Shown: positions 175 to 7,175 of the stretch, piece by piece
Layout: every line of letters starts with the position of its first letter
Numbering within the stretch: the first letter of the stretch is position 1
Source of the DNA: Lachnospiraceae bacterium
Lineage (GTDB): Bacteria > Bacillota > Clostridia > Lachnospirales > Lachnospiraceae
NCBI GenBank assembly: GCA_015057835.1
Contig: SVDL01000014.1
Location: forward strand, 1-32,401
Reading direction: 5' to 3'
Length of the DNA: 32,401 nucleotides
Translations under genes and position numbers: made by a program
The notes under the pieces: generated by a model
Database searches by the model: none
What the model saw: the letters and a program-made list of their open reading frames with translations, nothing else
What the model was told of the DNA's origin: nothing

Positions 175-2175
175 CTATTTCTTTTCCTTATCCTTTTCCT
201 CCTTTTTCTCCGGATGGGACAGGAATCTCACGTACGTTATTTCCGTCTTTGCCTCGTTGATTTTGTAATAAACGAAATCACCCAGCTTCGGCTCATATCC
301 GAGGAGAACATCGATATTTTTAGCGATCGTGTATTTCTGTTTTTCCCCGGTTACAGAAGTGATCGTAACACTGTTGTTATTCTTATCCCATTCCGTGATC
401 CAGCCCGCCAGCGTGTCTCTGTTTTTCCCCACAAGTTCCAGTTTCAGCAGAGACATTTTTCCTGCTTCGTAGGTGAACTTGACGATATCGCCCTTTTCCG
501 GGAGATAACCGCTTGCGATCTGGAATTCCGGATCGATGGTAAATGTAAGTTTCTTGTCCGTATCCGTGTGAATGATGTACTCATCTTTCCACTTTATGAT
601 CTCGCCGGAACCATCAATTTTGATTTCAGGCAGAGGTTCTCCTGTCGGTGTCGGAGCAGGCGTTTCTGTCGGTGTCGGTTCTTCCGTCGGTTCCGGGATC
701 GGCTCTTCTGTCGGTTCCGGGGTTGGCTCTTCCGTGGGCTCCGGCGTCGGTGTTTCCGTCGGTGTCGTAGTCGGTTCCGGTGTAGGTGTCTCTGTCGGTT
801 CCGCGGTCGGCGTCGGTGTCTCCGTCGGTGCCGCGGTCGGTGTAGGAGTTTCCGTCGGTGTCGCCGTCGGTGCCGGTGATTCCGTAGGCGTCGCTGTCGG
901 AACCGGGGATTCCGTGGGTTTCGGCGCCGGTGTTTCTGTAGGCGTAACGGTAGGTGTTGCCGTCGGTGTCGGTGATTCCGTAGGCGTCGCTGTCGGAACC
1001 GGGGATTCCGTGGGTTTCGGCGCCGGTGTTTCTGTAGGCGTAACGGTAGGTGTTGCCGTCGGTGTTCCCGTCGGTGTCGGCGTCGGAAGCGGGCCGCTGC
1101 AGTAAACCGCGACCGCGACCGGATCCTCTTTCAGCTTGCCGTAATAGGTCACCGTTGCCTGCTGTCCGGATGCCAGTTTTTCTCCCTTATAGCTGATCTT
1201 TTCGTAAATCAGGAAGGTGTATGTATTTTCCTTTGTCCGCAGCGTAAATGACTTCTTCTCGACCTTGTCCACCACGCCGTTTATGCTGTGGAAAATGTCG
1301 TCTTCTTCCTTATGTTTCAGAATCGAGAGTTCGATCGCCGTCGGTGTCTCGTCGATCTGGCCGGTAAATGACACAGACACGGTATCCCCGACTGCCGCCT
1401 TGTCCGCAATGCCCGTGATCTTTGTCCCGGAAGAGATCATAATACGATATGCGGTAGCGGAGCTGATGCTGAGCAGGATCGAATCAGCGGCCACTTCCGA
1501 GACCGTACCGGAAATGAGGTAGATCTGGGGCTGAAGATTCTCTGTAATAACGTTCACACTGACCGCATATGGTTCTTCACTGATATCGCCCGTGTAAGTA
1601 ACTTCGACTGTATCGCCTTCGGACAGTTCTCCGTTCACTTTCGTCTTTTTGTCGATGGAAAACTGCGCTGTCATTTCCGTGCCCGTGACGACAAGCTGTC
1701 CGTCGCTGTAACGGTAAACAAGTCCGCCGAAGACAGACTTTTCTTCTTCGTGACGGGTGACAATGACCTGTTCGGCTATATTTTTCCCCTCCACGTCGTG
1801 GTAGATTACGTCCACCGTGTCTCCGAGGGTGAGATTCGAGCCGCCGTTCAGGTTGTAATAGGTATACGCGTCTCTGTAAAATGTCTTCTCCTCCGACTCT
1901 CCGGAAAGGACAAATTCACCATAAGCGAAGTCCGTCAGTTCGCCCTCAAATGTCTCCTTCACGACCGGAGCCGGCGTCAAAGTCGGTTTCGGCGTCTCGG
2001 AGTCCGCATTTTCAGACGCTTCGGAAGCTTCCGCGGAGGAAGAGCTGCCGGAATCGGCGGCATTTTCAGCGCCGCATCCCGCAAGAACGGATGCCAGCAT
2101 CATCAGCAGAGCAATCAAAAGGCAGCTTGTGCGCAGGGGCAGCTTTTTCATTTTCGTGCGTGAAACATGTCTCAT
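175..2175 (-). CDS. Secreted lipoprotein with six beta-type repeats and a Pro/Thr stalk
   Basis: A 666-residue protein of unrecognised function. The chosen ATG at 2175 has GGAGG 8 bases upstream; a further in-frame Met 17 codons upstream lacks a site. Residues 1-34 form a lipoprotein signal: basic start, hydrophobic core, lipobox LAGC with Cys34 as the lipidation site. Residues about 80-360 hold four units of roughly 62 residues with the pattern G-x-V ... GD-x-V-x-V-x-Y ... A-x-x-V, resembling small OB-like or DUF5666-like beta domains. Residues about 362-515 are a TPTETPTP-type stalk, and two more units follow before a Lys/Glu-rich end. I infer a lipid-anchored surface protein whose stalk spans the wall. 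Monocistronic by context, with a terminator at 31-58. The repeat-domain family name is a guess. Confidence 0.85.
875..1066 (-). repeat. 96-bp tandem duplication in the lipoprotein stalk
   Basis: Two adjacent copies (875-970 and 971-1066) differ at only one base that I can find. Each encodes 32 residues of the TP-rich stalk. The near identity, including synonymous positions, points to a recent duplication or to continuing copy-number change within an otherwise diverged TP repeat. Confidence 0.85.
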
Positions 2176-2262
2176 GGAAAGGCCTCCATTTGAAATGATT
2201 TTCAGAATACATAAGAGACTGGTCACAAGCCATTAAATGTAGAAAACGCTCTTATAAACTTA

Positions 2263-2341: not shown

Positions 2342-2423
2342 GCAGACTTACAGTATTTAAAGAAGATATTTCTATAGAGAAAGCAGACTAACAGTATTTA
2401 TGGATAATATTTCTATTATGAAA
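2342..2423 (+). repeat. Imperfect 41-bp tandem duplication spanning the tsaD start
   Basis: The two halves, 2342-2382 and 2383-2423, match at about 33 of 41 positions and both begin GCAGACT-ACAGTATTTA. The second copy contains both candidate tsaD start codons (2400 and 2418). At the equivalent places the first copy reads TAAA and AGAG instead of TATG. Confidence 0.75.
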
Positions 2424-3440
2424 GAATACACTGACATTCTCGCGATCGAGACGTCCTGCGACGAGACCGCGGCCGCGGTCGTCCGGAACGGAAGGGAGAT
2501 CCTCTCCAATGTGATCTACACGCAGATCGCGCTCCACACGGAGTACGGCGGCGTCGTGCCGGAGATCGCCTCCCGCAAACACATCGAAAAGATTAATCCC
2601 GTGGTGCGAAAAGCGCTGGACGATGCCGGGAAGACTCTTGATGAGATCGACGCGGTCGCTGTGACTTACGGACCGGGACTTGTCGGGCCGCTGCTCGTCG
2701 GCGTTTCCGAGGCGAAGGCCATCGCCTGGGCGGCGGGAAAACCGCTGGTCGGCGTCAACCACATCGAGGGGCATATCGCGGCCAATTATATCGCGCATCC
2801 GGATCTGGAACCGCCCTATCTCGGGCTCATTGTCTCCGGCGGACACACTCATCTTGTTATTGTGGAGGATTACGCGCAATTTGAGATCCTCGGCAGGACA
2901 GTGGACGACGCAGCCGGGGAAGTATTTGACAAAGTCGCCCGCGCCATCGGACTGGGGTATCCCGGCGGACCGAAGATCGATAAGGTTTCCAGAGAGGGAA
3001 ATGCGGACGCGATTACATTTCCCAAAGCCAAAGTGAACGGCGCGGAATATGACTTCAGCTTCAGCGGCTTAAAGAGCTGCGTCCTGAACTACCTCAACAC
3101 CGCGAAAATGGCGGGCGAAGAAGTCCCGCAGGCGGACCTCGCGGCGTCCTTCCAGAAGGCTGTCGTCGACGTTCTGTGCGACCACATGCTCCACGCCTGT
3201 CATGAGACCGGCTTCCGGCGCGCCGCGCTCGCCGGGGGCGTCGCCTCCAACAGCACGCTCCGCGCGGAGATGGAACGCCGCTGCGCAGCGGAAGGCGTCT
3301 CGCTGTTCGTGCCGCCGCCAATTCTATGCACGGACAACGCGGCGATGATCGGCGCGGCTGCTTACTATGAGTTCAAGGCCGGACATATTTCCGGTTGGGA
3401 TCTCAACGCGGATCCGAGACTTGGGCTAGGGCAGAGATAA
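2400..3440 (+). CDS. tsaD: tRNA N6-threonylcarbamoyladenosine (t6A) synthase subunit TsaD
   Basis: TsaD transfers the threonylcarbamoyl group to A37 of ANN-decoding tRNAs in the cytoplasm, working with TsaB and TsaE, both encoded at 21.6-22.9 kb here. The 346-residue length is typical. Family landmarks include [16 protein letters not shown] near the start, [13 protein letters not shown] at about 89-101, the metal-binding HIEGH (His121, His125) and the GGVASNS segment near the C-terminus. The start is uncertain: ATG 2400 and ATG 2418 (giving [11 protein letters not shown]) both lack a clear Shine-Dalgarno sequence, and both lie in a 41-bp tandem duplication. Monocistronic, ending in a terminator at 3500-3540. 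Confidence 0.95.
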
Positions 3441-3449
3441 TAAGGTGGG

Positions 3450-3474
3450 GCCAAGGAGGACGGTTCTCTTTGGC
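3450..3474 (+). repeat. GGACGGTTCTCT palindromic element, copy A
   Basis: The arms GCCAA (3450-3454) and TTGGC (3470-3474) enclose GAGGACGGTTCTCT. Related copies occur at 6415-6441, 18533-18561 (inverted) and 19927-19950, always just outside genes. This copy begins the composite repeat that precedes the HTH cassette. Confidence 0.65.
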
Positions 3475-3499
3475 GCATCCGATTTTGAGCCACAATTTT

Positions 3500-3540
3500 A
3501 GGACGAAGAGACTCTTTTTTGTTCTCTTCGTCCTATTTTT
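3500..3540 (+). terminator. tsaD terminator
   Basis: A 12-bp perfect stem (3500-3511 with 3523-3534, AGGACGAAGAGA arm) is followed by ATTTTT. Its right arm and T-tract, TTCGTCCTATTTTT, are also the start of the first 64-bp repeat unit, so the arm is effectively repeated five more times downstream. Confidence 0.8.
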
Positions 3541-3880
3541 CCGCCGCTGCCATCTTGCTTTCTCAGTCGATCGGCTCTGTTCCTGCCCGTTCGTCCTACT
3601 TTTCTGTCGCTGCCATCTTGCTTTCTCAGTCGATCGGGCTCAGTTCCTGCCCGTTCGTCCTACTTTTCTGCCGCTACCATCTTGCTTTCTCAGTCGATCG
3701 GGCTCTGTTCCTGCCCGTTCGTCCTACTTTTCTGCCGCTACCATCTTGCTTTCTCAGTCGATCGGGCCATGTTCCCGACCATTCGTCCTATTTTTCAGTG
3801 TCGGACATCTTGCTTCCTCAGTCGATCGGCCCATGTTCCCGACCGTTCGTCCTATTTTTCAGCGTCAGACATCTTGCTCT
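3527..3880 (+). repeat. 64-bp tandem repeat cluster 1 (about 5.5 units)
   Basis: Units start with TTCGTCCTA at 3527, 3590, 3654, 3718, 3782 and 3846, so the period is 64 (63 for the first). Each has two strongly conserved blocks: TTCGTCCTAyTTTTC and CTCAGTCGATCGG. The stretch between is also similar from unit to unit. The last unit decays after about 30 bases. The region is pyrimidine-rich and open in several frames, but 64 is not a multiple of three, so it is not a protein repeat. It fills most of the gene-free stretch 3441-4077. Confidence 0.9.
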
Positions 3881-3904
3881 TTCTCCTTCACCTCGCCGCA
3901 AGGT

Positions 3905-3980
3905 CAATTTATCGTTTTTCGATAAATTTATATTGACATTCGATAACCCAAGGAGTATCCTCTGCTCATGATATATCATG
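3905..3980 (+). promoter_or_regulatory. Promoter and likely operators of the DUF2975-HTH-membrane cassette
   Basis: TTGACA (3933-3938) and TATCCT (3956-3961) are spaced by 17 bases, a strong SigA-type promoter. A 9-bp inverted repeat (AATTTATCG / CGATAAATT, from about 3906 to 3928) lies just upstream. A further CGATAA sits inside the spacer at 3941-3946. A perfect 14-base palindrome, CATGATATATCATG, covers 3967-3980 near the transcription start. I infer that the repeated CGATAA half-sites and/or the palindrome bind the HTH protein encoded downstream. Confidence 0.65.
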
Positions 3981-4077
3981 ATCCTGTCATCGACTTTGTG
4001 TGGATATCCTGCAGACGGCAGAAGAAATCCAGCCTGCAATACGCCGCAAAGCAATGGCAGCCAAGGGACCCGAAACC

Positions 4078-4560
4078 ATGAAAAAACAAACGAATTCAGG
4101 AATATTCAATGAAGAAAACAGCATCCGTCTGACCAAAGGATGCATTTTGCTCCTGTATGCCGCTGCGGCCGTGATGACTTTGACAGGACCGCGGATCGTG
4201 GGGCACTTTATGGAACGCTCGACGCCGTGGCTGACAGGAAACACGCGTTTTGGCGTCATGCTTGGATGCGGGTATGTGTGCGCTGCGCTGGCATTTGTCT
4301 GCCTCACTGACCTTTACCGGCTGCTCGGGCGGATCGGCCGCGGCGACGTCTTTGTCGCGGAAAATGTCGCCTCCCTCCGCAGGATCGGCCTCGAAGTTCT
4401 GGCGGCGGCATTTATGACAGCGGTGATCGGACTGACCTGCTATCTTCCGGTACTGGTTCTGTCTGCTGCGGCGATATTTATGATGCTGATCATCCGGGTC
4501 GTCCGGAATGCGTTCGGAAAAGCGGTCGCCATGCAGGACGAACTCGACTACACGATATAG
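4078..4560 (+). CDS. DUF2975-type four-helix membrane protein
   Basis: A 160-residue integral membrane protein with four hydrophobic segments, at about residues 20-42, 60-80, 102-123 and 126-145. The middle loop reads LYRLLGRIGRGDVFVAENVASLRRIG, and its GDVF-xx-N-x-xx-LR pattern is characteristic of DUF2975 proteins. The start chosen is ATG 4078 (MKKQTNSG), preceded by a weak AAGGGA; the frame is open further upstream but without a ribosome site. It is followed 9 bases later by a small HTH gene. This is the usual partner arrangement for DUF2975, and the membrane protein is suspected of modulating the regulator. The actual function is unknown. Confidence 0.8.
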   Translation: MKKQTNSGIFNEENSIRLTKGCILLLYAAAAVMTLTGPRIVGHFMERSTPWLTGNTRFGVMLGCGYVCAALAFVCLTDLYRLLGRIGRGDVFVAENVASLRRIGLEVLAAAFMTAVIGLTCYLPVLVLSAAAIFMMLIIRVVRNAFGKAVAMQDELDYTI

Positions 4561-4569
4561 GAGGCCGCT

Positions 4570-4803
4570 ATGATCCGTATAAATCTCGACGTCGTCATGG
4601 CGAAAAACCATATCAGTGCAGGCACGCTCGCTCAGAAGATCGACCTCACGCCCGCGAACCTTTCGATCCTGAAGAATAATAAGGCGAAGGCGATCCGCTT
4701 TACGACACTGGAGGCGCTCTGCCGCGAGCTGCACTGCCAGCCGGGTGATTTCATTGAATATGTCCCTGATTCACCGGAGGACACTCAAAATGAATCCATG
4801 TGA
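4570..4803 (+). CDS. Small Cro/C1-type (YozG-like) HTH regulator
   Basis: A 77-residue DNA-binding protein made almost entirely of one helix-turn-helix domain. It begins MIRINLDVVMAKNHISAGTLAQKI, continues with the recognition region LTPANLSILKNNKAKAIRF and ends TLEALCRELHCQPGDFIEY, the standard layout of the YozG/Xre-like group. It lies between the DUF2975 gene and a large membrane protein and overlaps the latter's start by 14 bases, indicating translational coupling. The candidate target is the CGATAA-containing promoter at 3905-3980, by analogy with autoregulated Xre-type cassettes. Confidence 0.88.
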   Translation: MIRINLDVVMAKNHISAGTLAQKIDLTPANLSILKNNKAKAIRFTTLEALCRELHCQPGDFIEYVPDSPEDTQNESM

Positions 4804-6382
4804 TCTGACAAATAAAAAAAACATCCGCCTTTTCCGCATCGCTGCCATCATCAGCTACGGTATCGGCTACATATATGCAGCAAATTTCTGGGACGATCCG
4901 AACTGGGTCTCCGGCTTCCTCTTCTTCAGCATCCTGTTCATTATCTGCACGGAATGCTTCGCATATTTTTCCGGCCGGACATTTTCTGCCCTGAAAAGCG
5001 CCGGGCATACCGTATGGGAAGGCATTTTCTTTGCGGTCTGTGCTCTTGCGCAGGCTGCTGCGCTGTATATTTACGGACTGCATAAGGATATGGAACCCGC
5101 GCAGTTCTTCATGTGGCATGTCACCATGGTCTGTTACGTCATCGCGCGCACCGGCATGCTTATTAACGGCAGGACCGGTCATCTGTTCTGGCTCGACATG
5201 GTGCAGGGCTTTTTTGCTTTGCCTTTCGGAAATATCCACTTGCGGATCGTTTCCCTTTTCAGCAGCGCGAAGAGAAATACCGGCGCGAAAATCGCAGCTT
5301 CCCCGTATCTTCCGAATATGACAAATGCTCCGGTTTCCGAACGTTCGATCATGGCAAATGATCCCGTCCTCGGAGTCCCGAACATACCGAATGCACCGGC
5401 GCCCGCCACTCCAGGCACTCCCCTGCCAGCCGCTCCCTGCACACCAGGCACTCCCCTGCCCACTGCCAAGGGGACTTCCGCACCTGCTGCCCCGGCATCT
5501 CCCGCTCCGCAGAAGCAGCCGGGTCGTTATTCTCAGACCGAGAAATGGCTGATCGCCGTCGGTGTGCTGTTCGGACTCATTCTCACCGCTGTGATCTGGA
5601 ATCTGCTGGCCGGTGTTTCGTCCGCATTTTCTGACCTCGATTTCGGGATTTTTAAATTGCTTCGTTCTTTTGCGGAGATGGTCGAATCCTTTTATGAGAC
5701 TTATCTCGCGAATTTCTTCGACGATTTCATTCCCAAGCTCATTTTCTCGATCCCGGTCGGGGCATGGCTGTTCGGCCTTGTCGGCGGCTCGTTAAAGCGG
5801 AGCAGACCGGTGTTCACCGAAGAGGAGTTTCAGAACGCGACCCGTTCATGGCATGCATTTCCGATCGTAACGCTCTATATTGTGAGCGGCATGCTCTGCG
5901 CGGTGTATACCCTCTTCTTCGCGGTATCCCTCCGGGAACTCATAGGGCTTGTTAACATCACCGCGCCACAGGCTTCAAGGCTGGCTGTGAACGGGTTCTG
6001 GCAGCTTGTCCGGATCGTCATCATCAATATCGGGACTCTCGGTGTATATTCTCTGTTTTTAAAGGATTCGGAAAGAAACGCCGCCGGGACTGCAACCGGC
6101 TGGTCCGGCGTACCGAGGATCCTGCTGACGGTGCAGTTTGCATTTACGACTGCATTTGCTATGCTTGCAGGATGGAAGCTGTTTGGGATCTATATCGGCC
6201 TGTTCGGCCCGACGCCAAGGCGGATGCTCTCCGGATGGTTCCTTCTTGTTCTGCTTCTCGCGTGTATCATGATCCTGGTGCAGCTTTACAGAAAAATCGC
6301 AGCCGCAAGGATCGTGATTCTTACAGCGGCAGCGACATTTACCATTTTGTGCTGCCTTCCGGTTGGGCAGATCTGCGGATAA
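4790..6382 (+). CDS. Large multi-pass membrane protein, possibly DUF4153-like
   Basis: A 530-residue polytopic protein. ATG 4790 has GGAGG (4776-4780) at good spacing and overlaps the HTH gene by 14 bases, so it is very likely translated from the same transcript. About four hydrophobic segments (residues 12-155) precede a Pro/Ala-rich linker at about 175-255, which contains a repeated CTPGTPLP-like motif. A second membrane half (about 260-530) then has six or so segments. The architecture recalls DUF4153-type proteins found beside DUF2975/HTH pairs, but I am not certain of the family. No enzymatic motif is visible. It could be a sensor or transport component controlled by the HTH protein. Confidence 0.75.
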   Translation: MNPCDLTNKKNIRLFRIAAIISYGIGYIYAANFWDDPNWVSGFLFFSILFIICTECFAYFSGRTFSALKSAGHTVWEGIFFAVCALAQAAALYIYGLHKDMEPAQFFMWHVTMVCYVIARTGMLINGRTGHLFWLDMVQGFFALPFGNIHLRIVSLFSSAKRNTGAKIAASPYLPNMTNAPVSERSIMANDPVLGVPNIPNAPAPATPGTPLPAAPCTPGTPLPTAKGTSAPAAPASPAPQKQPGRYSQTEKWLIAVGVLFGLILTAVIWNLLAGVSSAFSDLDFGIFKLLRSFAEMVESFYETYLANFFDDFIPKLIFSIPVGAWLFGLVGGSLKRSRPVFTEEEFQNATRSWHAFPIVTLYIVSGMLCAVYTLFFAVSLRELIGLVNITAPQASRLAVNGFWQLVRIVIINIGTLGVYSLFLKDSERNAAGTATGWSGVPRILLTVQFAFTTAFAMLAGWKLFGIYIGLFGPTPRRMLSGWFLLVLLLACIMILVQLYRKIAAARIVILTAAATFTILCCLPVGQICG

Positions 6383-6414
6383 GTTCAAAGAAGCAGCCTG
6401 AAAAAGGAAGAAGA

Positions 6415-6441
6415 AGCCAAAGGGGACGGTTCTCTTTGGCT
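6415..6441 (+). repeat. GGACGGTTCTCT palindromic element, copy B
   Basis: The arms AGCCAAAG (6415-6422) and CTTTGGCT (6434-6441) form a perfect 8-bp stem enclosing the conserved GGGGACGGTTCTCT core. It lies 33 bases after the stop of the large membrane protein and starts composite repeat 2, mirroring copy A at 3450. Confidence 0.75.
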
Positions 6442-6501
6442 CCTTCTCTTTGGCTCCTTTTCTTTGGCTCCTTTTCTTTGGCTCCTTCTCTTTGGCTCCT
6501 T
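6434..6501 (+). repeat. 14-bp tandem repeat, five copies
   Basis: CTTTGGCTCCTT recurs exactly every 14 bases at 6434, 6448, 6462, 6476 and 6490. The first copy is the right arm of palindromic element B, so the array looks like local expansion of that arm. Any of the five copies could pair with the single AGCCAAAG left arm. Confidence 0.9.
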
Positions 6502-6532
6502 TTATCAGACGAAAATGCTCATTTTAGCGTTG

Positions 6533-6802
6533 CTCGTCCCTTTTTTTGAGCTCTTCTCTCTTCTGTTTTCAGTCGATCAAGCTCTTTTCAGAACTGTTCG
6601 TCCTATTTTTGAAGCTCTGCTCTCTTCTATTTTCAGTCGATCGAGCTCTTTTCAGAACTATTCGTCCTATTTCTGCAACTCTGGTCACTTCTATTCTCAG
6701 TCGATCAAGCTCTTTTCAGAACTATTCGTCCTATTTCTGCAACTCTGGTCACTTCTATTCTCAGTCGATCAGGCTCTTTTCAGCGCTGCTCGTCCTATTC
6801 TT
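6533..6802 (+). repeat. 64-bp tandem repeat cluster 2 (about 4.2 units)
   Basis: Units start at 6533, 6597, 6661, 6725 and 6789, all exactly 64 bases apart, and share TTCGTCCTATTT and TTCAGTCGATCrrGCTC with cluster 1. Between these blocks the sequence differs from cluster 1 but is uniform within this cluster. The first unit is preceded by an AT-rich hairpin (AAAAT/ATTTT around 6512-6525) and reads CTCGTCCC followed by seven Ts, so it could act as a weak terminator for the cassette. It fills the gene-free stretch 6383-6828. Confidence 0.9.
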
Positions 6803-6828
6803 GAAGCTGCCTCCGCCGAAACTTGGTG

Positions 6829-6857
6829 TTGAAACCTCTCCCGAAGAATGCTATAAT
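6829..6857 (+). promoter_or_regulatory. Promoter of tRNA-Ser
   Basis: TTGAAA (6829-6834), a 17-base spacer and TATAAT (6852-6857) preceded by TGC (extended -10). The start should fall near 6864, 40 bases before the mature tRNA. Two perfect 7-bp hairpins, 6862-6878 and 6880-6896, fill that 5' leader. Confidence 0.8.
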
Positions 6858-6904: not shown

Positions 6905-6990
6905 GGAGAGGTATCGAAGTGGTCATAACGAGGCGGTCTTGAAAACCGTTTGTCCGCAAGGGCGCATGGGTTCGAATCCCATCCTCTCCG
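6905..6990 (+). tRNA. tRNA-Ser (anticodon TGA)
   Basis: The acceptor stem GGAGAGG (6905-6911) pairs with CCTCTCC (6983-6989), with discriminator G at 6990. The anticodon loop CTTGAAA gives anticodon TGA, reading UCA and other UCN codons. A long variable arm and a canonical T-arm (ATGGG TTCGAAT CCCAT) complete a class II serine tRNA of 86 bases. CCA is not encoded (TGT follows), so it must be added after 3' processing. Confidence 0.97.
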
Positions 6991-7049: not shown

Positions 7050-7060
7050 CGGGACAGCTT

Positions 7061-7171
7061 CTCCTAAGGTCAGCCCCTGATAAGGAAAGTCTCTGATAAA
7101 GACATCCTCTCCTAATGCCAGCCCCTGATAAGGAAAATCTCTGATAAGAACATCCTCTCCTAATGCCACCC
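7061..7171. repeat. 48-bp tandem repeat, about 2.3 copies
   Basis: Units starting CTCCTAA at 7061, 7109 and 7157 are exactly 48 bases apart and nearly identical (for example AGCCCCTGATAAGGAAA in the first two). The array directly abuts the stop codon of the minus-strand membrane protein at 7176. It would therefore lie in that mRNA's 3' untranslated region. Confidence 0.85.
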
Positions 7172-7175
7172 CCTG

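Follow-up and report, generated by a model that had tools for sequence, protein, structure and literature searches.

Dispersed hairpins and 64-bp tandem arrays on both sides of a probably gained three-gene operon behind tsaD in a Lachnospiraceae genome

Tandem units at many loci of one genome are familiar from the mycobacterial interspersed repetitive unit/variable number tandem repeat (MIRU/VNTR)-type minisatellites of mycobacteria, and a gene pair encoding a DUF2975 protein and an HTH_26 (HTH, helix-turn-helix) regulator occurs in Bacillus as yoaS-yozG. Passages of two studies on Pseudomonas describe repetitive extragenic palindromic (REP) sequences and REPINs (REP doublets forming hairpins): in P. 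fluorescens SBW25, near-identical REPINs form tandem clusters together with their flanks (PMC3116915), and REPs of related Pseudomonas mostly occur in opposed pairs whose spacing is uniform and typically 60-70 bp, with genome Pf0-1 containing no REP-associated tyrosine transposase (RAYT; PMC3390384). The DNA analysed here is contig SVDL01000014.1 of assembly GCA_015057835.1 (Lachnospiraceae bacterium; 32,401 nt, hereafter the window), in which a DUF2975–HTH–DUF4153 operon has on each side a GGACGGTTCTCT hairpin and a terminator-like one, together with a tandem array of 64-bp units. We consider it likely that this arrangement arose by gain of the operon together with independently settled dispersed repeats, the arrays being copied as composites and then locally expanded. 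The flanking repeats are not the boundaries of the operon and are probably not what moved it, because they are dispersed elsewhere in the genome, the two arms are poorly alike and a homologous operon in another genus lies without them.

That the same two-part element (hairpin, 64-bp array) stands on both sides of the three-gene block, in the same order and with everything on the + strand, had been reported in a preliminary description of the window and was confirmed. Behind tsaD (2400..3440, +; Pfam TsaD, 1.4e-96), a REP-like hairpin (3450..3474, +; GCCAAGG..GGACGGTT..CTCTTTGGC, in full GCCAAGGAGGACGGTTCTCTTTGGC), recognised by sequence reading, motif scan and folding, is followed by a terminator-like hairpin with a T run (3499..3540, +; folding, with a near-identical head at contig C150), which forms the head unit of array A1 (3527..3880, +; 64-bp units of family I, CAGTCGA ... 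TTCGTCCTATTTTT). Behind the operon, a second and extended copy of the REP-like hairpin (6415..6441, +; motif scan, folding) is separated from the terminator-like head (6508..6545, +; folding) by a 14-bp repeat of the hairpin's right half, in five tandem copies (6430..6501, +; Tandem Repeats Finder), and this head is likewise the first unit of array A2 (6533..6802, +; family I). Both arrays were delimited by Tandem Repeats Finder and unit alignment, the former giving period 64 with 5.5 copies and 90% matches for A1 (3527-3878) and 3.9 copies and 91% matches for A2 (6551-6799). In both arrays the first unit also serves as the 3' arm of the terminator-like, T-run-bearing hairpin in which the array begins. 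Folding energies were -21.1 kcal/mol for the head behind tsaD (~3499-3540) and -11.6 kcal/mol for that behind the operon (~6508-6545); the fold of 6500-6545 was matched by 0 of 200 shuffles (z -3.65), and no shuffle was as good as 3440-3545, which includes the first REP-like hairpin (z -5.7). A consensus terminator scan, which covers loops of 3-8 and plain stems, listed neither head hairpin.

The two arms are related and are not copies of each other. They align at 69% identity over 220 bp (77 bits), with a longest exact match of 17 bp, inside the hairpin; within the arrays, runs of 61 and 64 bp are identical between units, and recombination would therefore act mostly inside an array. The left composite aligns with one on contig C150 at 80% over 310 bp (269 bits), hairpin and terminator-like head included, and with one of two on contig C120 (C120a) at 79% over 328 bp (268 bits). 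At C150 the composite of hairpin, terminator-like head and array lies directly behind a peptidase M24/creatinase-type gene (Pfam). The left composite had no match in either the plasmid or the phage collection, and an origin from either was set aside on this result.

The hairpin core was found at 109 sites of the genome with ≤3 mismatches (52 forward, 57 reverse), compared with 0 sites for a reversed-pattern control at the same threshold, and in this it resembles REPs, which are short extragenic palindromes in many copies. With ≤2 mismatches, 81 sites were found here and 1 to 14 sites in eight of the 41 other genus genomes. Both window copies fold, and the folding of other copies varies; called gaps between genes hold only 36 of 75 sampled hairpin sites, the gene caller being crude. 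Occurrences of the hairpin-core string in the literature were all off-topic by title. In genus genome G038 the motif was observed as inverted pairs with starts 65-68 bp apart, a REPIN-like arrangement (C87, C171, C237, C244), in which the stem half TTTTTGAC mostly stands after the same GGGGACGGTTC.

Arrays of 64-bp units were found at eight further places on seven contigs (C120 (two), C150, C135, C24, C104, C97 and C8), the C150 array being in two pieces either side of an N run. A BLAST search with A1 returned eight matches in this genome, A1 itself included, and a match in 0 of the 41 other genus genomes. Over 12 array stretches, anchor-to-anchor spacing was exactly 64 bp in 36 of 37 measurements, the sole exception (63) being in A1, so the same unit length recurs in tandem at several loci between genes, as in MIRU/VNTR-like systems. 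Because the whole unit repeats (~90% within each window array), with no pattern of constant repeat and unique spacer, a CRISPR (clustered regularly interspaced short palindromic repeats) array was rejected. Three contigs start in or ≤160 bases from 64-bp arrays (L241 1-141; L224 119-246; L226 159-558), and an N run lies inside the C150 array (L225); for these reasons the assembly probably breaks at such arrays and undercounts them.

The sample given to Tandem Repeats Finder consisted of 61 stretches (942,650 bp of this genome, window included), which were partly chosen for hairpins or arrays, so that array density is biased upward. This sample held 24 noncoding arrays of period at least 38, with period 64 in nine and period 128 in one, which is the C97 64-bp array. 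The rough coding rule dropped 24 of the 48 arrays of this genome, among them the 48-bp array behind the tRNA gene of the window, the C104 array of 64 bp and a 75-bp one on C6. With the same filter, G001 (200 kb), G018 (71 kb) and G038 (52 kb) yielded 0, 1 and 0 arrays, and 1.31 Mb from relatives, taken at tsaD and elsewhere, yielded 6; period 64 was absent among these seven noncoding arrays. Hairpin-bearing arrays of other periods were also seen: in this genome with period 75 (L216 5273-5470; L228 12800-12995) and period 85 (L205 9219-9475; L219 7055-7241), with arm sequence shared by eye within each pair, and in a distant relative with period 53 (L129 11475-11786; 5.9 copies), just behind tsaD, tRNA-Ser(TGA) and tRNA-Ser(GGA).

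At least two arm families of 64-bp units were distinguished, the TCGTCC-type of the window and an ATGCC-type (C24, C104, C97, C8). The family I arrays diverge from each other at 33-47% of positions on average and keep 64 bp regardless. The linker ATCTTGNTTT is common to arrays of both arm types and to one 85-bp array. Its pattern gave 35 hits, and seven altered patterns gave 4, 17, 13, 2, 26, 15 and 5. Array copies account for 24 of the 35, and the remaining 11 are not above control level, which suggests that only the presence of the linker across several arm families counts.

The operon comprises genes for a DUF2975 membrane protein (4078..4560, +; Pfam PF11188, 6.7e-16, on a longer open reading frame (ORF) at 4000-4560), an HTH_26 (Cro/C1-type) regulator (4570..4803, +; Pfam PF13443, 2.9e-21) and a DUF4153 membrane protein (4790..6382, +; Pfam PF13687, 5.4e-20, on a longer ORF at 4745-6382). 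Against NCBIfam, the HTH protein reached the VanU and HipB models far below cut-off, and the other two proteins reached nothing. The DUF4153 protein was found in one of 42 genus genomes, namely this one, and in two of 397 family genomes, this one and G276, and it had one match among plasmids (25% over 46%). G276, which belongs to another genus, carries homologues of all three genes in the same order (49%, 72% and 33-36% identity), and the 11 kb around them contain no 64-bp array, no GGGGACGGTTC motif (≤1 mismatch) and no tRNA genes. Upstream of both operons ATTTATCGTTTTTCGATAA and then TTGACATTCGA are conserved, which in the window gives an inverted repeat, TTATCG-TTTTT-CGATAA, followed by TTGACA-17-TATCCT (3906..3961, +), the likely operator and promoter of the operon as judged from conservation of the operator and -35 region in G276 and a promoter scan that found 2 sites compared with a mean of 3.1 in shuffles. 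The conserved inverted repeat would be bound by the operon's own Cro/C1-type protein, and the operon would then be autoregulated.

A TsaD match was present in 35 of the 42 genus genomes, and the 3' side of tsaD was examined in the 34 other than this genome. The operon was found at 0 of these 34 loci, and ispD lies ≤1.5 kb 3' of tsaD in 33; together with the occurrence of the DUF4153 protein in a single genus genome, this indicates that the operon was probably gained in this lineage. tRNA-Ser(TGA) lies ≤4.5 kb downstream of tsaD at 15 of the 34 loci (9 same strand, 6 opposite), a count limited by several contigs that end before the tRNA could show. A further scan, which may omit very near genomes, gave 80 TsaD loci at greater distance; the operon was again found at none of them, and of the 51 whose downstream sequence exceeds 1.5 kb, 45 have ispD ≤2.5 kb away. 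No match to the ispD or ispF model turned up in this 2.66-Mb, 91%-complete assembly, and for this reason the ispD/ispF pathway may have been lost, leaving the slot vacant, the incomplete assembly making this a weak indication.

The three-gene operon, with its own operator and promoter, would thus have entered the interval from tsaD to tRNA-Ser, the slot where the genus keeps ispD. The intergenic repeats (the REP-like hairpin, with >100 copies, and the 64-bp arrays) would have settled independently in both gaps, after tsaD and after the operon; the arrays probably spread from site to site as copied composites and afterwards expanded and became uniform at each site in steps of 64 bp, through slippage or unequal exchange. 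Among the ways in which the repeats could work, such passive spread is best supported. Several points weigh against this explanation. The order of events is unseen, the compared set being without a close strain that bears an empty or ispD-containing slot, and absences from a 91%-complete assembly are weak. For six of the 14 listed arrays a hairpin lies ≤100 bp away, more than expected from the raw density (75 hairpins per 942,650 bp), and hairpin and array may belong together more closely than independent repeats would; this association is inflated, as both elements favour gaps between genes and the sample was partly picked for them. Of the arrays placed in gaps, one of six shares its gap with a hairpin, compared with 7 of the 127 gaps that measure ≥250 bp, a crude baseline given that the gene caller put only 6 of 14 arrays in gaps.

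The preliminary description had proposed a cassette, with recombination between the two arms as the means by which the operon was gained, duplicated or lost. The direct orientation of the same two parts on each side and the absence of the operon from relatives accord with this, but a mobile cassette should carry repeats that are specific to it and near-identical at both ends, whereas these arms have the low identity and short exact match given above and the nearest kin of the left arm are at C150 and C120a. The cassette was rejected on arm identity and kinship, and we regard it as highly improbable; what survives of the proposal is the gain, which agrees with the slot and the rarity of the operon, and duplication or loss is not supported by the arms or by the G276 homologue. 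The same description held that the cassette would be undermined by arrays at unrelated intergenic sites, which do exist, together with retention of the cassette by all relatives, which do not keep it. Its second suggestion, that one repeat was installed downstream of two adjacent transcripts, fits better, except that a strict 3'-end rule fails at C135 and at C120a, which lies between tuf and the gene after it; both arrays face against the two genes beside them. These two arrays also oppose the view, unlikely in our estimation, that the arrays act as strings of weak terminators or as spacers insulating one transcript from the next. This view draws on the positions of A1, A2 and C150, each behind a same-strand gene and starting with a terminator-like hairpin followed by T-rich units, and of the C24 array, behind a 131-residue open frame on its own strand (an overlapping opposite ORF is also present). 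Inner units, however, keep no hairpin by most measures: the A1 unit has no folding advantage over shuffles (z +0.67), and strong folding is restricted to the heads and to part of the C120 units. Pair counts on 20 of the 28 hairpins listed (near-duplicates and a unit with an indel omitted) gave 69.2% of cells paired compared with 67.7% in shuffles, 72 of 500 of which were as high. The exception is the number of cells changed on both sides (11 compared with 6.3 shuffled, reached in 25 of 500 shuffles). RNA hairpin strings under selection were therefore mostly unsupported by the pair counts.

The 64-bp units could instead be REPIN-like mobile elements in tandem clusters, copied to new intergenic sites by a transposase acting in trans, which is compatible with operon gain and independent settling as the route by which the repeats spread, and which we hold only as a tentative possibility. 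It is consistent with inverted arms at fixed spacing, with occurrence at many sites in either orientation and in tandem clusters that include flanks, and with a Y1_Tnp match in 22 of the 42 genus genomes, including G018 (8 hairpin sites). Against it, Y1_Tnp (PF01797), the model for the Y1 (RAYT) transposase associated with REPs and REPINs, had 0 matches in this genome and was not found either in G038, second among the 42 in hairpin sites (14), and family I arms are poorly paired outside head units. As inverted doublets the units give a mixed picture, with arms at a fixed distance and good pairing in the heads and some C120 units only. Mobilisation by a resident Y1 transposase was set aside, none having been found in this assembly. 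This lowers the probability of REPIN membership only in part, a RAYT-less Pseudomonas genome, Pf0-1, being recorded in PMC3390384. A further reading, in which the 64-bp arrays form one system with a built-in ruler, their length being fixed by a dedicated machinery for copying or binding, appears quite improbable to us, even though TCGTCC-type and ATGCC-type arms are both exactly 64 bp, share the ATCTTGNTTT linker and stand side by side at two loci: two TCGTCC-family units lie beside the ATGCC-type array at C24, and a single CAGTCGATC sequence beside that at C104. Common descent with fast turnover of the arms could explain the constant 64 bp, as the shared linker hints; a length-measuring process could also explain it, and the data do not separate the two. 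The periods of 53, 75 and 85, picked by eye, are like 64 near whole DNA turns, which weakly hints at helical phasing, since periods 51, 55, 58, 92 and 100 also occur. Over the 24 noncoding arrays the resultant length at 10.5 bp was 0.56, a value driven by the nine 64s, and phasing was accordingly not retained as independent evidence.

Beyond A2, a promoter-like TTGAAA-17-TATAAT (6829..6857, +; promoter scan) precedes tRNA-Ser (TGA) (6905..6990, +; tRNA and RNA-family scans); RNA families at gathering score in the window comprised nothing beyond tRNA. tRNA-Ser(GGA), which comes next after tRNA-Ser(TGA) in many distant relatives, was not found in the window by the tRNA scan. A third tandem array (7053-7175; 48-bp period, 2.6 copies) lies behind a hairpin 3' of tRNA-Ser, and a predicted protein with long TPTPTE-type repeats is encoded at 175-2226 (-), with a DUF5666 match below cut-off.

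Direct repeats flanking a gained operon are tempting to read as mobility arms, and this locus illustrates that they need not be. Its operon resembles the yoaS-yozG pair in that a small membrane protein adjoins a Cro/C1 regulator, and differs in adding a third gene, DUF4153, and a conserved operator; among the papers listed for the DUF2975 and HTH_26 pair, no functional study stood out by title. The arrays resemble the MIRU/VNTR of mycobacteria in having similar-sized tandem units at many loci per genome, and differ in that the sequence is unrelated and some head units are terminator-like. The closest known kind for the 64-bp arrays is the REPIN. Differences from the REPINs of the P. fluorescens group are the Y1 transposase, found nowhere here, the mostly mismatched arms, the long strings of one exact period (64) and the presence of more than one arm family. 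This Lachnospiraceae genome, in which REPIN-like tandem arrays keep a single exact length and a transposase is not visible, could be used for asking what fixes unit length. Likenesses are the many copies and the inverted arms at a fixed distance, 60-70 bp in Pseudomonas according to a passage of PMC3390384, and the tandem clusters of nearly identical units, flanks included, that a passage of PMC3116915 describes for some REPINs.

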